This document shows positions 4,251-12,816 of a DNA stretch of 34,200 nucleotides, piece after piece. The notes below the pieces were generated by a model. That model was not told where the DNA came from. It ran no database searches and worked only from the letters and a program-made list of their open reading frames with translations. The translations under genes and the position numbers were made by a program. The stretch is from a virus. The stretch lies in IMG/VR virus record IMGVR_UViG_3300044732_000530, positions 1 to 34,200 of that record; one strand, given 5' to 3'. How positions within the stretch are numbered: position 1 is the stretch's first letter; each line of letters begins with the position of its first letter.

Positions 4251-4314
4251 AGTTTTCGTTGTATCGTTTCGTGTCTACTCGTCTGGGTGCGTCGCCCTTT
4301 CCTGCTTCACTCAT
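4141..4314 (-). CDS. Small KGDxPR-type phage protein overlapping the RHH gene
   Basis: A 57-residue frame from ATG 4314 to TAA at 4141. The N-terminus (GKGDAPRRVDTKRYNENYERIF) recalls a widespread group of tiny phage proteins with KGDxPRxVD...Y..N(Y/F)..IF; the match is from memory. It is preceded by a good Shine-Dalgarno (AAAGGAGA, 9 nt before ATG). It starts within the last codons of the upstream gene. Its second half overlaps the RHH gene's 5' end out of frame. The function of this group is unknown. Confidence 0.6.
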   Translation of the reverse strand: MSEAGKGDAPRRVDTKRYNENYERIFRKTTIEQEAKPEAEIQLRVGAEEEPAPRQED

Positions 4315-4501
4315 GCTTTTTTCTCCTTTCTTCGTTTAGCTCCCAAAGTTTCGTGGCCATCTCGGAGTAATATCTTTCAAGCAGTAAAGCTACCGCATCT
4401 TCAGTGGTGGATTCCGTGGTCTGGAAAAACTCACATGGTATCATTGTGCTAATTCGGCCAAGCATTTGACCGTAGTCTTGATTTCTTTCTTCTATACTCA
4501 T
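4307..4501 (-). CDS. Small hypothetical protein
   Basis: A 64-residue, largely helical protein ending in a charged ELNEERRKKHE tail. No family is recognised. The ATG at 4501 overlaps the upstream stop (ATGA) and has an excellent Shine-Dalgarno, AAAGGAGG at 4515-4508, six bases upstream and inside the upstream coding sequence. It overlaps the next gene's start at 4314 by eight bases. Confidence 0.65.
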   Translation of the reverse strand: MSIEERNQDYGQMLGRISTMIPCEFFQTTESTTEDAVALLLERYYSEMATKLWELNEERRKKHE

Positions 4502-4974
4502 GAATCCCCTCCTTTCACGGCGGCGGTAAAGACGGCAATAGCAGCATCTACGCGCTCCGCATCCTCATACTTTTGCCAAAGATATTCACCACCCCACTGA
4601 GAACGACGATCTTCGTATTCTTCAGCCAGTATTTTTCCAGCCTCCGCCAGCCTGTCGCGTTGTTCGCGGGCCTCGTCGCGTTCACGCAATGATTCGATCC
4701 GTTCAACTCTTGCTTTAACCCACGCTTCTTGGGTTATTTTCAAATCCTCCCGTGCCTCGTCGCGTTGCTCGACTAGCTCGTCAATCTTCGCTTGGGCCAT
4801 GGCTGGCGATATCGTCCAAGCGTGCGACTCAAGCTCTTCTTTGAGCTTTTCGATCTCGGACCTCGCATCGTCGCGTTGCTCTGTCACGGATTCAAGCGTG
4901 GTTTGCGTAACTTTGAGTAGGTTTTCCAAGTGTTCAATTCTATTGGCTTCTGTAATTTGGTCAAAAATAATCAT
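4498..4974 (-). CDS. Coiled-coil protein of the EQRD/VKGG family (longest member)
   Basis: A 158-residue protein that is almost entirely coiled coil, with repeated E-Q-R-D units (TEQRDDARSEIEKL, VEQRDEAREDL, REQRDRLAEA). It ends in AAVKGGDS. The EQRD units are encoded by near-identical DNA (TCGCGTTGCTC or TCGCGTTGTTC on the plus strand), which recurs in several genes of this block. The final codons GTGAAAGGAGGG also form the ribosome-binding site of the next gene. Function is unknown; small early coiled-coil proteins often act as protein-protein adaptors or host-takeover factors. Confidence 0.65.
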   Translation of the reverse strand: MIIFDQITEANRIEHLENLLKVTQTTLESVTEQRDDARSEIEKLKEELESHAWTISPAMAQAKIDELVEQRDEAREDLKITQEAWVKARVERIESLRERDEAREQRDRLAEAGKILAEEYEDRRSQWGGEYLWQKYEDAERVDAAIAVFTAAVKGGDS

Positions 4975-5038
4975 GATAGGTCTAGGATTTTAAGTTCGTA
5001 GAGGTTGGTCTTCCATGCCTGTGATGTGTAGTGAAGGC

Positions 5039-5236
5039 TCATTCCTGCTCTAAATTGTCTTGAATGAATGCGATGAAATGTTCTACTACCCAGCTGCGTG
5101 ACTTCCCTCGGAAGTGCTGCCTCTGGATGTGTGCAAGTCTCTCCCACACTTCTGGTGACATGGTGATGCTGCGCGTGATGCGGCGCTTGCCTTCTGGGAG
5201 TGGCTTAAGACCACGCTTATTTTGGTTCTGATTCAT
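5039..5236 (-). CDS. Second ribbon-helix-helix-like protein
   Basis: A 65-residue protein with a basic N-terminus and the pattern RRITRSITMSPEVWERLAHI, then SRSWVVEHFIAFI (about residues 18-56). This fits the strand plus two helices of CopG/Arc-type DNA-binding proteins. It is not a close copy of the one at 3912-4250. It may be a repressor of early or late promoters. The start overlaps the upstream gene's 3' end by 20 bases and has no Shine-Dalgarno sequence. Confidence 0.6.
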   Translation of the reverse strand: MNQNQNKRGLKPLPEGKRRITRSITMSPEVWERLAHIQRQHFRGKSRSWVVEHFIAFIQDNLEQE

Positions 5237-5510
5237 TGATTTGTTCTGTGATGTTCCATGTGAGGTTTGATTTGAGGTTTTCGATCTCCTCCGCCAGCAT
5301 GTCGCGTTGCTCCGTCACGGCGGCGAGTTCAGCCTCAAGCCGATCCAAATCGAATGCACTGATCGTTACATCATGTGTCCTGCTCATGGCTGACCTCCTT
5401 CCATGATTGATTCCATGACCATCTGCTGCTTTACCCGCCTGTCCGTACTTAACCGTCTTTGTTCTACCCGTCTTTGGGTTCTTTACTACTTTGGAAAATC
5501 TCTTCTTCAT
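5217..5510 (-). CDS. Basic N-terminus fused to an EQRD coiled coil, or two starts in one frame
   Basis: The 97-residue frame begins KKRFSKVVKNPKTGRTKTVKYGQAG, a basic motif that resembles other small phage proteins. It then continues into a coiled coil (LDRLEAELAAVTEQRDMLAEEI). An internal in-frame ATG at 5387 has a near-perfect ribosome-binding site (GGAAGGAGG, 6 nt upstream) and would give a 56-residue coiled-coil protein alone. The ATG at 5510 has none. Either only the short form is a gene with a decayed basic gene fused in front, or both forms are made. It overlaps the downstream RHH gene by 20 bases. Confidence 0.55.
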   Translation of the reverse strand: MKKRFSKVVKNPKTGRTKTVKYGQAGKAADGHGINHGRRSAMSRTHDVTISAFDLDRLEAELAAVTEQRDMLAEEIENLKSNLTWNITEQINESEPK

Positions 5511-5542
5511 ATGTATGAATTGTATCAGATTCTACGGGAAAT

Positions 5543-5830
5543 TCAATAGTCACCCTTTAGCTCCTTGATGCCGCGATCTAGGTTATCTTGTCGCCATTGG
5601 ATGCGCTTGATTGCCGTCTCGATCTGGGCTTCTAGGTCTAGGGCTTGTTCTCGCCAGCGTTGTGCCTCGGTTCGCCAAAGGTCGCGCTCGGCTTCAGCTT
5701 TCTCTACGGCCATCAGCACATCGTCGATGGCTTCTCCGATTTCCCGTGAGTCTGGTTGATCCATGTCCTCATTGCCCCTGCGCCACAGGTTATAATCACG
5801 CAGCACTTGGATTGCTTGTTCTGTTTTCAT
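5543..5830 (-). CDS. Coiled-coil hypothetical protein
   Basis: A 95-residue charged protein. The N-terminal third (MKTEQAIQVLRDYNLWRRG) is mixed. The rest is coiled coil with AEAERDLWRTEAQRWREQA and ends DRGIKELKGDY. The ATG at 5830 overlaps the upstream stop (ATGA) and follows GGAGGAG inside the upstream gene. It is similar in style to the EQRD family but lacks the VKGG ending. Function unknown. Confidence 0.6.
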   Translation of the reverse strand: MKTEQAIQVLRDYNLWRRGNEDMDQPDSREIGEAIDDVLMAVEKAEAERDLWRTEAQRWREQALDLEAQIETAIKRIQWRQDNLDRGIKELKGDY

Positions 5831-6063
5831 GGCTTCTCCTCCAGCTTCTCGATTTCTTGGATGATCTTATCAATGGCGTTCTCAACGAATGGCCATTCCT
5901 CAACATTGAACTTAATGGATTGCTCATCCCCCACTTGAGGAAATTGCTTTATCTCAATAAATGGCCCAGCCGCTTCATCCACAATGCTGATTTCAGTAGC
6001 TTGATAGCTGAAGATTGGTTCGCCTTTTGGTAGTACAGTTATTCTTGATGTTATCGCATTCAT
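5827..6063 (-). CDS. Small acidic hypothetical protein
   Basis: 78 residues from ATG 6063; an in-frame TTG 48 bases upstream is less likely. A beta-type N-terminal half (SRITVLPKGEPIFSY) is followed by an acidic helical end (NAIDKIIQEIEKLEEKP). The sequence encoding EKLEEKP contains the GGAGGAG that serves the next gene. No family is recognised. Confidence 0.55.
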   Translation of the reverse strand: MNAITSRITVLPKGEPIFSYQATEISIVDEAAGPFIEIKQFPQVGDEQSIKFNVEEWPFVENAIDKIIQEIEKLEEKP

Positions 6064-6141
6064 AGTTGTTAAAGGTTCCACCTTGCCGGTCGCTGGGTGG
6101 TGCAGCGACAATGAACTAGGCTACCGGCATACCCGATTGTA

Positions 6142-6336
6142 TTAAGCGGCAAGACGATAGCGAGCAAAAATCTTGCCATTCTGCTTTACGCTGTCCGTAA
6201 GGATTGGGAACCCCGCATTGCGAAGCTCGTTGATCCGTGCCGATAGCCTCATACATCCCCATTTATTAAGTGCTTGCAGGGCGGTGATGGTCTTCCCCTT
6301 GAGGAGCCATAATTCTAGTTTGTGTGATACGCTCAT
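6142..6336 (-). CDS. HTH_39-like helix-turn-helix protein
   Basis: A 64-residue protein in which GKTITALQALNKWGCMRLSARINELRNAGFPI matches the phage-associated helix-turn-helix family I know as Pfam HTH_39, in which an ITALQAL helix is followed by RLSARI.ELR..G. The C-terminus (NGKIFARYRL) would form the wing. It probably binds DNA; the target is unknown. It stands alone with short gaps on both sides. Confidence 0.7.
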   Translation of the reverse strand: MSVSHKLELWLLKGKTITALQALNKWGCMRLSARINELRNAGFPILTDSVKQNGKIFARYRLAA

Positions 6337-6340
6337 AGTA

Positions 6341-6523
6341 TTAGTCTAGTCTTGGAATTTCAAACTCGAACTTGTCATCAAGTTCCGTCATAATTGCTGA
6401 GTGAATCTCGCTTTCCAGCAAGTCCTCGGATGGTTCGTCGGTGTGTTTATGGGCGCGTCGAATCCCATAACGAATCCCGTTTTCGATGCATTCTTTGATG
6501 ATGTTATACATTCTCGGTTTCAT
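6341..6523 (-). CDS. Small hypothetical protein
   Basis: A 60-residue protein with an amphipathic helical N-terminus (NIIKECIENGIRYGIRRAHKH) and an acidic C-terminal helix (ESEIHSAIMTELDDKFEFEI). The start has a pure A/C leader (ACAACAACAAAAA) and no Shine-Dalgarno sequence. I cannot assign a family or function. Confidence 0.55.
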   Translation of the reverse strand: MKPRMYNIIKECIENGIRYGIRRAHKHTDEPSEDLLESEIHSAIMTELDDKFEFEIPRLD

Positions 6524-6544
6524 TTTTTGTTGTTGTTTGTTGTT

Positions 6545-6847
6545 TCAGAACGGTTTGGAATGCTCTCTCAAGGATTCCTCTGCCGTTAAGACTTGTCTGA
6601 CCGCGCTCACGAAGGATCTAGCATCCTCCTGCGATGTTAACTTGGAAAGTTCCTTCTCAAGGCAGTAGATGCACTCTCTGCCACCTCTCGCACTATTCCC
6701 GCATCCATTACAGCATACGGAGAATGTCGATGGCCACCTTGGATTCTGATACCAGATGTCTGCGATGAGGTTCTCAATCTCTTGGTACTTTTTCATGTTT
6801 TCTAGATACTTGTTCCGGTGAACCACTGTCATTCCGTCAATTATCAT
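6545..6847 (-). CDS. Small zinc-finger-like protein
   Basis: A 100-residue protein. Residues ~45-62 read CCNGCGNSARGGRECIYC, two CxxC pairs that would bind one zinc ion. The remainder is helical. The ATG at 6847 is favoured over the ATG at 6832 because a perfect AAAGGAGG (6860-6853) lies five bases upstream, inside the previous gene's VKGGG codons. The overlap with that gene is 11 bases. It may bind nucleic acid or protein; the function is unknown. Confidence 0.65.
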   Translation of the reverse strand: MIIDGMTVVHRNKYLENMKKYQEIENLIADIWYQNPRWPSTFSVCCNGCGNSARGGRECIYCLEKELSKLTSQEDARSFVSAVRQVLTAEESLREHSKPF

Positions 6848-7205
6848 CGCCCCCTCCTTTCACGGCGGCCAATTGTTCTTCGGTATAAGCGGGAATTCTG
6901 CGACACGAGCTATCCCGCAGCATCATTTCTATGGCGTCCTGCGCCCTATCGCGTTGCTCGATTGCTATATCATGCGCCGCCTTCCAGTTAATCACCTCGC
7001 GTTTGAGTTCACGGCAGACCGATGAAACGAGGCGAATCTCGTTTGTTATTCTTTCTGCCTCATCGTGGTGGGTTCGATATTTTGATTTCAACTCATCACG
7101 CTCCTCATTCGCGGCGGCAAGCTCGCGCTCAAGCTTACGAGCAAACGATGCAAAAACGAGCAATTCACCCACTATTTCCTTATCTGTCCTTGGTGTATCA
7201 CTCAC
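6837..7205 (-). CDS. EQRD/VKGG coiled-coil protein
   Basis: A 122-residue coiled-coil protein starting at GTG 7205 (MSDTPRTDKEIV). It has FARKLERELAAANEERDELKSKY, then IEQRDRAQDAIEMML, and ends EEQLAAVKGGGDDN. The GTG is supported by AAAGGAGG five bases upstream in the preceding gene. It shares both the EQRD-coding repeat and the AAVKGG tail with the genes at 4498-4974 and 7198-7431, so these look like products of duplication and segment shuffling. No enzymatic motif is present. Confidence 0.65.
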   Translation of the reverse strand: MSDTPRTDKEIVGELLVFASFARKLERELAAANEERDELKSKYRTHHDEAERITNEIRLVSSVCRELKREVINWKAAHDIAIEQRDRAQDAIEMMLRDSSCRRIPAYTEEQLAAVKGGGDDN

Positions 7206-7431
7206 GGCTCCCTCCTTTCACAGCGGCGAGGGCTTGCTCTGCGATCCATATAGCATTTCTGCGACCCCATGGAGATCCATCTGCAATCTCCCTCAAAGCC
7301 TCCGCCAGCCTGTCGCGTTGTTCTCGTAGTTCGTAGGCCTCTCTAGGTGTCCAGTCGGCACTGCATCCACATTCTGCCTCGCTGTGAGCGTGGCACAGGC
7401 ATCCTTCTCCGGGTATGTATTTCTCTTTCAT
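7198..7431 (-). CDS. Short EQRD/VKGG protein with cysteine/histidine-rich N-terminus
   Basis: A 77-residue protein. The N-terminus (GCLCHAHSEAECGCSADWTP) has five cysteines and two histidines that could bind zinc. It is followed by YELREQRDRLAEALREIADG and the ending AEQALAAVKGGSRE. It repeats the family layout at minimal length with a different N-terminal module. It overlaps its neighbours by ATGA-type junctions (7428-7431) and by 8 bases (7198-7205). Confidence 0.65.
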   Translation of the reverse strand: MKEKYIPGEGCLCHAHSEAECGCSADWTPREAYELREQRDRLAEALREIADGSPWGRRNAIWIAEQALAAVKGGSRE

Positions 7432-9028: not shown

Positions 9029-9838
9029 TTATTTGATTGCCCACTTGGGGAATGAGAGTTCTTGGATTCCTTCAACTGCCTTGGGAAACATCTTCTCCGA
9101 GACGCATTTCTGGTATTTAGCGATTGCGTTCATGTACCCGATGCGCCCCTGCTCGATGAAATCACCGGACAGGTTGACGATTGCGGTTTCATAAGGCGCA
9201 GATGTTTCGACAAAGGCAAGCACAAAATTCGTGCGCTCAAGCCCTGTTGCGGCGTTGAACAGGTCGAGGTAGAGGGCGGCTTGCCAATGGTAGCCTCGGC
9301 GCACCACAAGGGACGCTAGGTCGTCAGCCTTACCGATGCTCGAAGTGGTCTTGATGTCCACCAAGTCATCCCCTGCCTGTGGCACAAGGTCGATCATCCC
9401 GCGCACCTTGGTTTCCCCGATCTGCGAGTAGACGGCAACCTCGGTCTTGTAACCCGTGACAAACAACGGCTGGAGGTCAAGGTCATTGAGGATCGATTCC
9501 GCGCATTCGTTGGCGGCGTTGAGTTGGGCTTGCGTGATGCAGACCTTACCCTGTGCCGTCATCGAATCCCGCCATTCCTGCGCCGCTTTGGTACGGAATG
9601 AGTCGTATTCGCTCACGGCATAGGTTTCGGCGTACTCGGTGGGCGTAAGAGCAAGGCAATGCACAAGGCTACCAAACTCCATCGCCGGCGTCGTCTCCTT
9701 CGGGCCGCTGTGGAACCACTTCCAAGGGCTTTGGTCAAACTCCCAAAGCATGCTTTTTGAGACATACCCGCCCAAGTTGGAGGGGCTTGCGCCCCCCTCG
9801 TAATACTTGCGCCCGAGGTTGTAGACTAGATTGCTCAT
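9029..9838 (-). CDS. PD-(D/E)XK recombination exonuclease (RecE/YqaJ-type)
   Basis: A 269-residue nuclease. Core motifs are visible: MEFGSLVH (53-60), a TGYKTEV strand with E133, RGMIDLV with D150, LVDIKTT (159-165, the D-x-K catalytic strand) and YHWQAALY (183-190, the Q-x3-Y motif typical of phage exonucleases). It would resect double-stranded DNA ends to expose single strands for the annealase. It starts at ATGA (9835-9838) overlapping RecT, with AAGGAGGT upstream inside recT. The pair forms a Red-like system. Confidence 0.85.
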   Translation of the reverse strand: MSNLVYNLGRKYYEGGASPSNLGGYVSKSMLWEFDQSPWKWFHSGPKETTPAMEFGSLVHCLALTPTEYAETYAVSEYDSFRTKAAQEWRDSMTAQGKVCITQAQLNAANECAESILNDLDLQPLFVTGYKTEVAVYSQIGETKVRGMIDLVPQAGDDLVDIKTTSSIGKADDLASLVVRRGYHWQAALYLDLFNAATGLERTNFVLAFVETSAPYETAIVNLSGDFIEQGRIGYMNAIAKYQKCVSEKMFPKAVEGIQELSFPKWAIK

Positions 9839-10605
9839 GGTTCTACCTCCTTGGCCATTTTATCGAACGCTTCTGCGATCTTGTCAGCGTGGGGTTTCGT
9901 GTTCCCCTTGGGCTTGTCCTCAACAACCTGTGCCTCGACAACCTCAACGGGTTCCGGCTCGGGTTCTGGTTCAGCCACGAATGGGTTTACCTTCGGTGTG
10001 ACATTGCGCGGAGGTTCAGCAAAGTCTCGCACCTCGTCCTGCGTGTACATGCCCAGCGACATATCAGAAGCATAAGCACGGCTCCAGAATGAAGCGGCAC
10101 GATAGCGGAGCATTTGACCAGGCATGGTCAGCCACTTGCTTCCGTTCTTTGTGCTCCATCCTTCCTTCTTTGCCATCTCCAAGGTGATTCGCTCACCCTT
10201 GAGTTCTTCACCTGTTGCCATATCACGCGCGACAGCGTAGCAGGATGTTGGAGCCTCGTCGGAGTCGAACACGAAGCGCAGGGGCGAGAACTTCCCGCTT
10301 GCGTTCACCATGCCGATCAGCGCGGTAGCAGACCATGAGGGCCGCCCGTGGATAATGGCTAGATTTTGGCAGACCATTAGAGGGTCAAGCCTTGTCCGCT
10401 TTGCCACATTGAGAGCAATCGCGCAGTTCGCCACATTACCCGCAAAGTCCTTGGGGACTAGGGTTGACTTTGAGAGCATCATCGCTTGCCGTTGCACAAG
10501 CTCGAATGCCTGCGTTTCAGCTTGCACCTGCGCCAGAATGCCCGTGTTTTGTGCTTCCTGCGGCACAATCGCTTCAGTTTGTGGTTGTGTCTGTTGCGTT
10601 TCCAT
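9835..10605 (-). CDS. recT: RecT-family single-strand annealing protein
   Basis: A 256-residue protein with the RecT core: NCAIALNVAKRTRLDPLMVCQNL, IHGRPSWSATALIGMVN, KEGWSTKNGSKWLTMPGQMLRYRAASFW. It is followed by a low-complexity acidic linker (EPEPEPEPVEVVE). The family anneals complementary strands. The tail end probably interacts with partners. It is immediately upstream of the exonuclease, with overlapping ATGA, so the two are translated together. Its start overlaps the preceding HTH gene by 32 bases. Confidence 0.88.
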   Translation of the reverse strand: METQQTQPQTEAIVPQEAQNTGILAQVQAETQAFELVQRQAMMLSKSTLVPKDFAGNVANCAIALNVAKRTRLDPLMVCQNLAIIHGRPSWSATALIGMVNASGKFSPLRFVFDSDEAPTSCYAVARDMATGEELKGERITLEMAKKEGWSTKNGSKWLTMPGQMLRYRAASFWSRAYASDMSLGMYTQDEVRDFAEPPRNVTPKVNPFVAEPEPEPEPVEVVEAQVVEDKPKGNTKPHADKIAEAFDKMAKEVEP

Positions 10606-12305: not shown

Positions 12306-12502
12306 GCGTCACCCCTTTCCATTCCCACGGCCTTTTCCATGATGCGGGCATGAAGACGGGCAAACTCGCCTTGCTTAAATGCGCCGACATTCCAAAGCCT
12401 ATCCATTGACCTTTCAAGGTTGGCGATGTCCTCAGGCGTTTCCGCCTTGTCGATCCTTGCCCGCATCGCGCGGGCGTTTTCGGGTGTCCATGCTGTTTTC
12501 AT
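12302..12502 (-). CDS. Small helical hypothetical protein
   Basis: A 66-residue charged helical protein (PENARAMRARIDKAETPEDIANLERSM). It ends MERGDA, where the codons again supply a purine-rich AAAGGGG for the next gene. The ATG at 12502 overlaps the upstream stop and follows AAGGAAGG by six bases. Function unknown. Confidence 0.55.
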   Translation of the reverse strand: MKTAWTPENARAMRARIDKAETPEDIANLERSMDRLWNVGAFKQGEFARLHARIMEKAVGMERGDA

Positions 12503-12816
12503 GCGTCACCTTCCTTCACCTTGGCGAGTGCATTTTCGGCAATCTCACGGCATATGCGGCAAAGATCGGCTAGGTTTTCCCGCTGCATGTCCACGCTTGC
12601 GGGTGACAGCCCAATGGCTAGGGACTCCAACGCGGCGAGCAAGTCGGGAGCGGCGGCAATCAAACGGGCGTTTGCCTCGGACTCGGCTTGATTGTCTGGC
12701 CATTCTGGAAGCCTTGCGATTTCCACAAGCTCGCTGTCGATTGCCCAAGCGTGATCGGGGCTTGCGCCTAGTGTGACGGGATGCCAGGGGCCTTGTGTGT
12801 GTGTATGTGTGTTCAT
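12499..12816 (-). CDS. NARLIAAAPDLLAAL-family protein with VKEG tail
   Basis: A 105-residue protein. It begins MNTHTHTQGPWHPV, contains NARLIAAAPDLLAALESLA (about 50-68), a motif seen in many small hypothetical proteins of phages and prophages, and ends IAENALAKVKEGDA. Despite its unrelated body, the tail resembles the VKGG proteins of the same operon, and its last codons again carry the ribosome-binding site of the following gene. The molecular function of the family is unknown to me. Confidence 0.65.
   Translation of the reverse strand: MNTHTHTQGPWHPVTLGASPDHAWAIDSELVEIARLPEWPDNQAESEANARLIAAAPDLLAALESLAIGLSPASVDMQRENLADLCRICREIAENALAKVKEGDA

Follow-up and report, generated by a model that had tools for sequence, protein, structure and literature searches.

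VKGG protein tails in a phage left arm are probably translated joints of exchangeable gene modules that carry the next gene's ribosome-binding site

The window analyzed here is a 34.2-kb virus record (IMG/VR record IMGVR_UViG_3300044732_000530, positions 1 to 34,200), whose left arm lies on the minus strand and encodes, among other products, a RecT-like protein and its exonuclease VIII-like partner, together with a resolvase and a DnaC-like loader. The left arm also holds a series of short overlapping genes, three of which encode coiled-coil proteins that end in AAVKGG plus 2 to 4 residues. We find that VKGG probably represents the translation of the joint at the 3' end of an exchangeable gene module, and that this joint carries the ribosome-binding site (RBS) of the next gene. 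In this arrangement, the coiled-coil genes end in ~30 nucleotides (nt) encoding EALAAVKGG, which set a consensus Shine-Dalgarno (SD) sequence 5 to 6 nt ahead of the start of any following gene, and the first bases of that gene often supply the upstream stop (ATGA).

The initial annotation of this DNA had proposed that the shared peptide is a by-product of embedding a strong translation signal at overlapping gene ends. Its central observation, a sequence, GTGAAAGGAGG, shortly before each of three downstream starts, was borne out: on the minus strand it lies 6, 5, and 5 nt from ATG4501, ATG6847, and GTG7205, respectively, and all coordinates check. The proteins had also been described as ending in VKGG, and while the motif is present in each, it is not the literal end; the final residues before the stop are VKGGDS, VKGGGDDN, and VKGGSRE. 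What comes after GG (DS, GDDN, SRE) is for the most part the opening of the next gene translated in another frame, and in relatives it varies with the downstream gene (SDE, SDDN, SHDH, SDELQG). Stop and start overlap co-directionally, as ATGA at 4501 and over longer stretches at 6847 and 7205, and such overlaps are widespread in relatives. The genes and joints concerned are the following.

4498..4974, minus strand: coiled-coil gene, end AAVKGGDS, in ATGA overlap with the following gene at 4501
4508..4518, minus strand: SD-bearing joint GTGAAAGGAGG, 6 nt ahead of ATG4501
4307..4501, minus strand: gene that follows the first joint; it ends in ERRKKHE, with AAAGGAG in the RR frame serving the start at 4314
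6837..7205, minus strand: coiled-coil gene with an MSDTPRTD head, end AAVKGGGDDN
6853..6863, minus strand: SD-bearing joint GTGAAAGGAGG, 5 nt ahead of ATG6847; the alignments of 15 relatives end at 6842-6878
6545..6847, minus strand: downstream gene starting MIIDGMTVV, which follows several kinds of upstream tail in relatives
7198..7431, minus strand: small gene with an EQRDRLAEAL core, end AAVKGGSRE
7211..7221, minus strand: SD-bearing joint GTGAAAGGAGG, 5 nt ahead of GTG7205

Relatives, identified below by L numbers, were gathered in four ways: with EQRDRLAEAL and with ALAAVKGG (both in all synonymous codons), with the MSDTPRTD head, and with RecT. GGAGG is present in 61 of the 65 KGG tails of the family, and we followed the suggestion of the initial annotation that VKGG tails be compared with downstream starts. 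In 57 of these 61 tails a start lies exactly 5 nt (37 tails) or 6 nt (20 tails) after GGAGG, and the genes that follow family KGG tails have at least 36 distinct protein starts. One of the four GGAGG tails without a counted start (L128) lies 71 nt from its contig end, and the rest are followed by a very short open reading frame or none. ALAAVKGG ends in L097, L119, L123, and L137 belong to unrelated proteins that use GGC, and these were excluded from the family. Among relatives not chosen by the motif, KGG fell within the last 7 residues of 24 of 1,078 genes with an overlapping downstream start, compared with 3 of 1,048 without a nearby start; KGG ends at overlapping starts are not due to chance. 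With KGG-picked loci excluded, overlapping ends carry KGG, and likewise KE, ~8 times more often than ends without a nearby start. SD matches of at least 6 nt precede ~12.7% of starts with a 4-bp overlap versus ~1% of other ATGA sites.

The codons of the tails point the same way. For each tail, synonymous codons were resampled, and the resulting anti-SD pairing was compared with that of the real codons. Pairing was −11.5 versus −8.9 kcal/mol for synonymous alternatives in KGG/KE tails (n = 22) and −12.3 versus −6.9 kcal/mol in RecT tails (n = 24), and the real codons of phrog_1273 tails also outpaired their alternatives; the test was neutral for the QSL tails of sister genes, described below, and for 196 control ends. 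The bias toward the SD thus has the same direction in three unrelated families, with P-values that are optimistic because of shared ancestry. Free synonymous codon usage at the tail, which the initial annotation had named as evidence against its idea, was not seen. SD-pairing codons are favored, and by this measure codons are picked for anti-SD pairing beyond the needs of the peptide. The other two families are represented in the window as follows.

9835..10605, minus strand: RecT-like annealing protein with a KEVEP tail, AAGGAGG serving the start at 9838; candidate exchange agent
9029..9838, minus strand: exonuclease VIII-like partner of RecT
12499..12816, minus strand: phrog_1273 protein, end KVKEGDA

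The phrog_1273 protein had been offered as a fourth, unrelated case of the same signal. Its KVKEGDA end is as described (GTGAAGGAAGGTGACGC-ATG), but the SD is weaker.

The peptide encoded at these joints depends on the frame in which the SD is read. In the window, SDs occur in every frame of the upstream gene, encoding KGG ahead of 4501, 6847, and 7205, KEVEP ahead of 9838, RRRGRKA ahead of 3915, and ERRKK ahead of 4314. Outside the KGG frame the SD yields KE followed by A or V, or RR, as in KEVEP (RecT), WKEA, KAKEAKP, and RRRGRKA, and the 53 SDs upstream of MSDTPRTD starts divide into 37 in the KE frame, 13 in the GGA frame, and 3 in the RR frame. KE is written AAG GAG at 110 of 154 overlap ends versus 2 of 20 non-overlap ends, with ~0.27 expected from body usage. 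RR ends showed no overall enrichment at overlaps, and the three-frame picture therefore leans mainly on KGG and KE. RecT orthologs whose next start is adjacent (ATGA or GTGA) mostly terminate in KEV or KEA with AAGGAGG. When the next start is 24 to 51 nt off (L329, L342, L346, L347, L350), KE or its SD codons are lost, leaving KNASA, KKISS, or AAA GAG (L329) and an SD in none; L324 and L336 are exceptions, with an adjacent start and no SD. An SD at fixed spacing, SD-favoring codons, and a peptide set by the SD frame are all apparent at the level of sequence.

Sequence on either side of the tail joint has also been replaced repeatedly while the joint itself was retained. Identity profiles consist of short conserved DNA between non-homologous flanks at ~0.25 to 0.30. 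At the tail seam, where VKGG, SD, and start meet, 88 pairs were discordant (55 + 33) and 2 concordant, with identity edges at −22 to +2 and +9 to +25 of the V codon. Many sister genes that share the internal motif of the coiled-coil genes instead end in ALQSLTPNEL or ALQSLTPNEP (examples are L014, L018, L039, L049, L067, and others), with no SD and a likewise overlapped next start; their QSL joint gave 18 discordant and 3 concordant pairs. The tail seam lies between genes. A second seam, the core seam, is intragenic, and its copies in the window, together with the module that it delimits, are listed here.

7294..7323, minus strand: core seam copy, DNA coding for EQRDRLAEAL
4636..4665, minus strand: core seam copy, DNA coding for EQRDRLAEA
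5283..5312, minus strand: diverged core seam copy, EQRDMLAEE, with a cluster of alignment ends
4508..4666, minus strand: C-terminal module bounded by the core and tail seams; a gene in L009 matches it at 98.7% identity

In all, EQRD-coding DNA occurs in six left-arm copies (7294-7323, 4636-4665, 5283-5312, ~4770, ~4881, and ~6959). The core seam is a ~30-nt island of DNA conservation, in which the arginine at position 5 is AGG in 53 of 54 copies (background, 0.11), and its flanks fall to chance identity within ~ten codons. Pairs of genes compared across it matched in the downstream half only (52 pairs), the upstream half only (29), or both (6), giving 81 discordant pairs versus 6. In most pairs the identity edges lie at about −7 to +3 on the left and +26 to +36 of the motif on the right, where five fits failed. 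A RecT control of the same geometry gave 64 concordant and 0 discordant pairs, and within-half controls gave 48 concordant and 14 discordant pairs for the C-terminal half and a mixed result (23 and 25) for the N-terminal half. When the halves were clustered, 16 C-terminal halves had more than one N-terminal partner and 8 N-terminal halves had more than one C-terminal partner. In L009, the 4508-4666 module is joined to an unrelated N-terminal half and followed by a different downstream gene. Relatives' alignments to the window end inside motif-defined seams in 59 of 214 cases; these seams make up 9.9% of the region, the share expected. At the level of sequence, this second, wobble-conserved joint is a point at which N- and C-terminal halves have been recombined.

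EQRDRLAEAL matches in a scan of a genome collection were mostly unrelated chance matches. The one genuine relative, L191, a Verrucomicrobiaceae metagenome-assembled genome, is the sole cellular relative of the cassette genes that we found; its tail is NRKEEG, with AAAGGAGGAGGG in the KE frame, and this single case hints that the hosts may be Verrucomicrobiota. MSDTPRTD heads (L195-L310) open many different phage genes with a conserved peptide; wobble conservation is much lower, and the head is therefore not a DNA seam of the core type.

These observations suggest how the joints might work. By analogy with known systems (PMC6728339), ribosomes ending one gene would use the SD to begin the next, a form of translational coupling. 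Phage Rad52-like recombinases, including RecT, carry out relaxed recombination, with a minimum of 23 to 27 bp for Red-beta (De Paepe 2014, PMC3945230). RecT and exonuclease genes are likewise present in the window and the scale of homology fits, and from the presence of RecT and the published short-homology work we infer that homologous annealing at the joints drives exchange, probably via the phage's RecT/exonuclease pair. The joint may persist partly because a newly joined gene would come with a working RBS. More tentatively, it is possible that these phages assemble genes combinatorially, with their own annealing recombinase shuffling genes and gene halves at two short standard coding seams, one of them RBS-bearing so that each new junction would be expressed, in group-specific and near-exclusive dialects (VKGG-SD or QSLT). 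SD and QSL tails occur together in only 1 of 88 contigs (L040).

Alternatively, the core and tail blocks could be functional DNA or RNA sites, such as a binding site or a recombination hotspot, and not points of homology-driven exchange. A wobble-conserved island amid chance-level flanks fits this idea, and the core seam (e.g., 7294-7323) contains GCTGGCGG, which is one base off the E. coli Chi octamer, GCTGGTGG. However, the identity edges of chimeric pairs match the block ends, as exchange directly predicts, and the SD and QSL tail blocks, which are unrelated, show like behavior. We consider functional sites an unlikely explanation.

Somewhat less likely still is that the peptide is solely a by-product of the embedded SD, with an independent origin in each gene. 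This idea is favored by the spacing of the SD, the codons chosen, and the frame switching, as well as by the independent selection for SDs in RecT and phrog_1273 tails, and it holds for the K-G-G codons. As a full account of the shared tail it is insufficient, because the conserved coiled-coil block reaches upstream of the SD (A-L-A-A-V, with CTC in 7/7 and GTG in 7/7) and shows clear shared DNA descent, because the QSLTPNEL tail of sister genes is just as conserved without an SD (CTA in 14/14, versus a background of 0.10), and because the phrog_1273 family keeps AIAKAxG even where a strong SD is missing. The missing ingredient is that the tails descend from a common DNA seam, itself a recurrent exchange joint.

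It is very unlikely that VKGG is instead a functional C-terminal protein motif, such as a recognition or degradation tag, with incidental SD-like DNA. The peptide does recur across many proteins, but GGAGG is present in nearly all family tails even though GGA makes up only about 24 to 25% of glycine codons, the SD stays while the motif shifts to WKEA, VEGG, MEGG, or RR, the tail of the sister genes is unrelated, and a downstream start nearly always adjoins VKGG. Within the VKGG family, peptide conservation was not independent of the codons used, the frame of the SD, and the gene downstream. The phrog_1273 relatives (L377-L456) lend this idea more support. They mostly end in AIAKA, then K, T, or E, then G, using a variety of codons, the downstream start overlaps in most cases, and many retain this tail without a strong SD, which makes a protein-level motif beside SD use likely. 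Since their codon choice is still SD-leaning, peptide and SD both seem to matter in that family. A single-sequence AlphaFold model of the 4498-4974 product, with a low predicted template modeling score (0.39) and little bearing on function, has two long helices and a non-helical final 3 residues. Scanning the VKGG proteins against Pfam and PHROG returned weak coiled-coil matches at most, tblastn with the 4498-4974 protein against 50,697 phage records returned zero matches, and a methyltransferase family search of the virus record found nothing.

Least probable of all is that the chimeric genes are metagenome assembly artifacts at short repeats, since the same combinations of N- and C-terminal halves recur in independent samples (L020/L026/L041 in three samples, L004/L066, L014/L017, and L028/L056), which argues against misassembly, RecT of related contigs is free of chimeras, and the same edges occur in the window's own genes and in syntenic relatives.

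Several points nonetheless weigh against our reading of VKGG as an RBS-bearing exchange joint. All of the sequences are metagenomic contigs, and tails and gene pairs share ancestry, so that independence is overstated by the P-values. Many overlapping joints lack a strong SD (41 of 94 MSDTPRTD overlaps, and every QSL tail), and the SD is thus not required. Exact identity at core joints of unrelated pairs has a median of 17 nt, with 25% at 23 nt or more, and because it often falls below the Red-beta minimum, present copies would be marginal for efficient annealing.

Conserved coding motifs have precedents as points of exchange: T-even phages swap adhesins and tail fibers at short conserved motifs. 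The genes described here similarly trade variable halves at conserved coding motifs, although they encode small coiled-coil proteins of the replication/recombination arm rather than tail fibers. An SD inside the upstream gene is well known in coupled overlapping pairs (Huber 2019, PMC6728339; Palleja 2009, PMC2784483; and Eyre-Walker 1996, as cited there). In contrast to such pairs, the constraint here fixes amino acids and not codons alone, producing a recurring family peptide whose identity is dictated by the SD frame. The model in which conserved boundary sequences underlie phage mosaicism is old, and such sequences are reported to be unseen at many or most mosaic borders (PMC3233612, PMC3029335). 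The seams resemble that model in that a short stretch of conserved DNA separates unrelated sequences where modules meet, and they differ from it in that one is intragenic, within a predicted coiled coil, while the other holds the RBS for the gene that follows. No paper in the literature searched, whose coverage excluded most subscription journals, was found to combine an intragenic coiled-coil joint with an RBS-bearing one.

Embedded SDs are thus already known, and the paired seams are a new form of phage boundary-sequence mosaicism. A conserved C-terminal peptide can be a disguised RBS, and SD frame, synonymous codons, and the downstream start provide simple tests for this. The seams also bear on a long debate over whether phage mosaics arise via conserved boundary DNA or via random joining and selection; here, boundary DNA is visible, in two forms.

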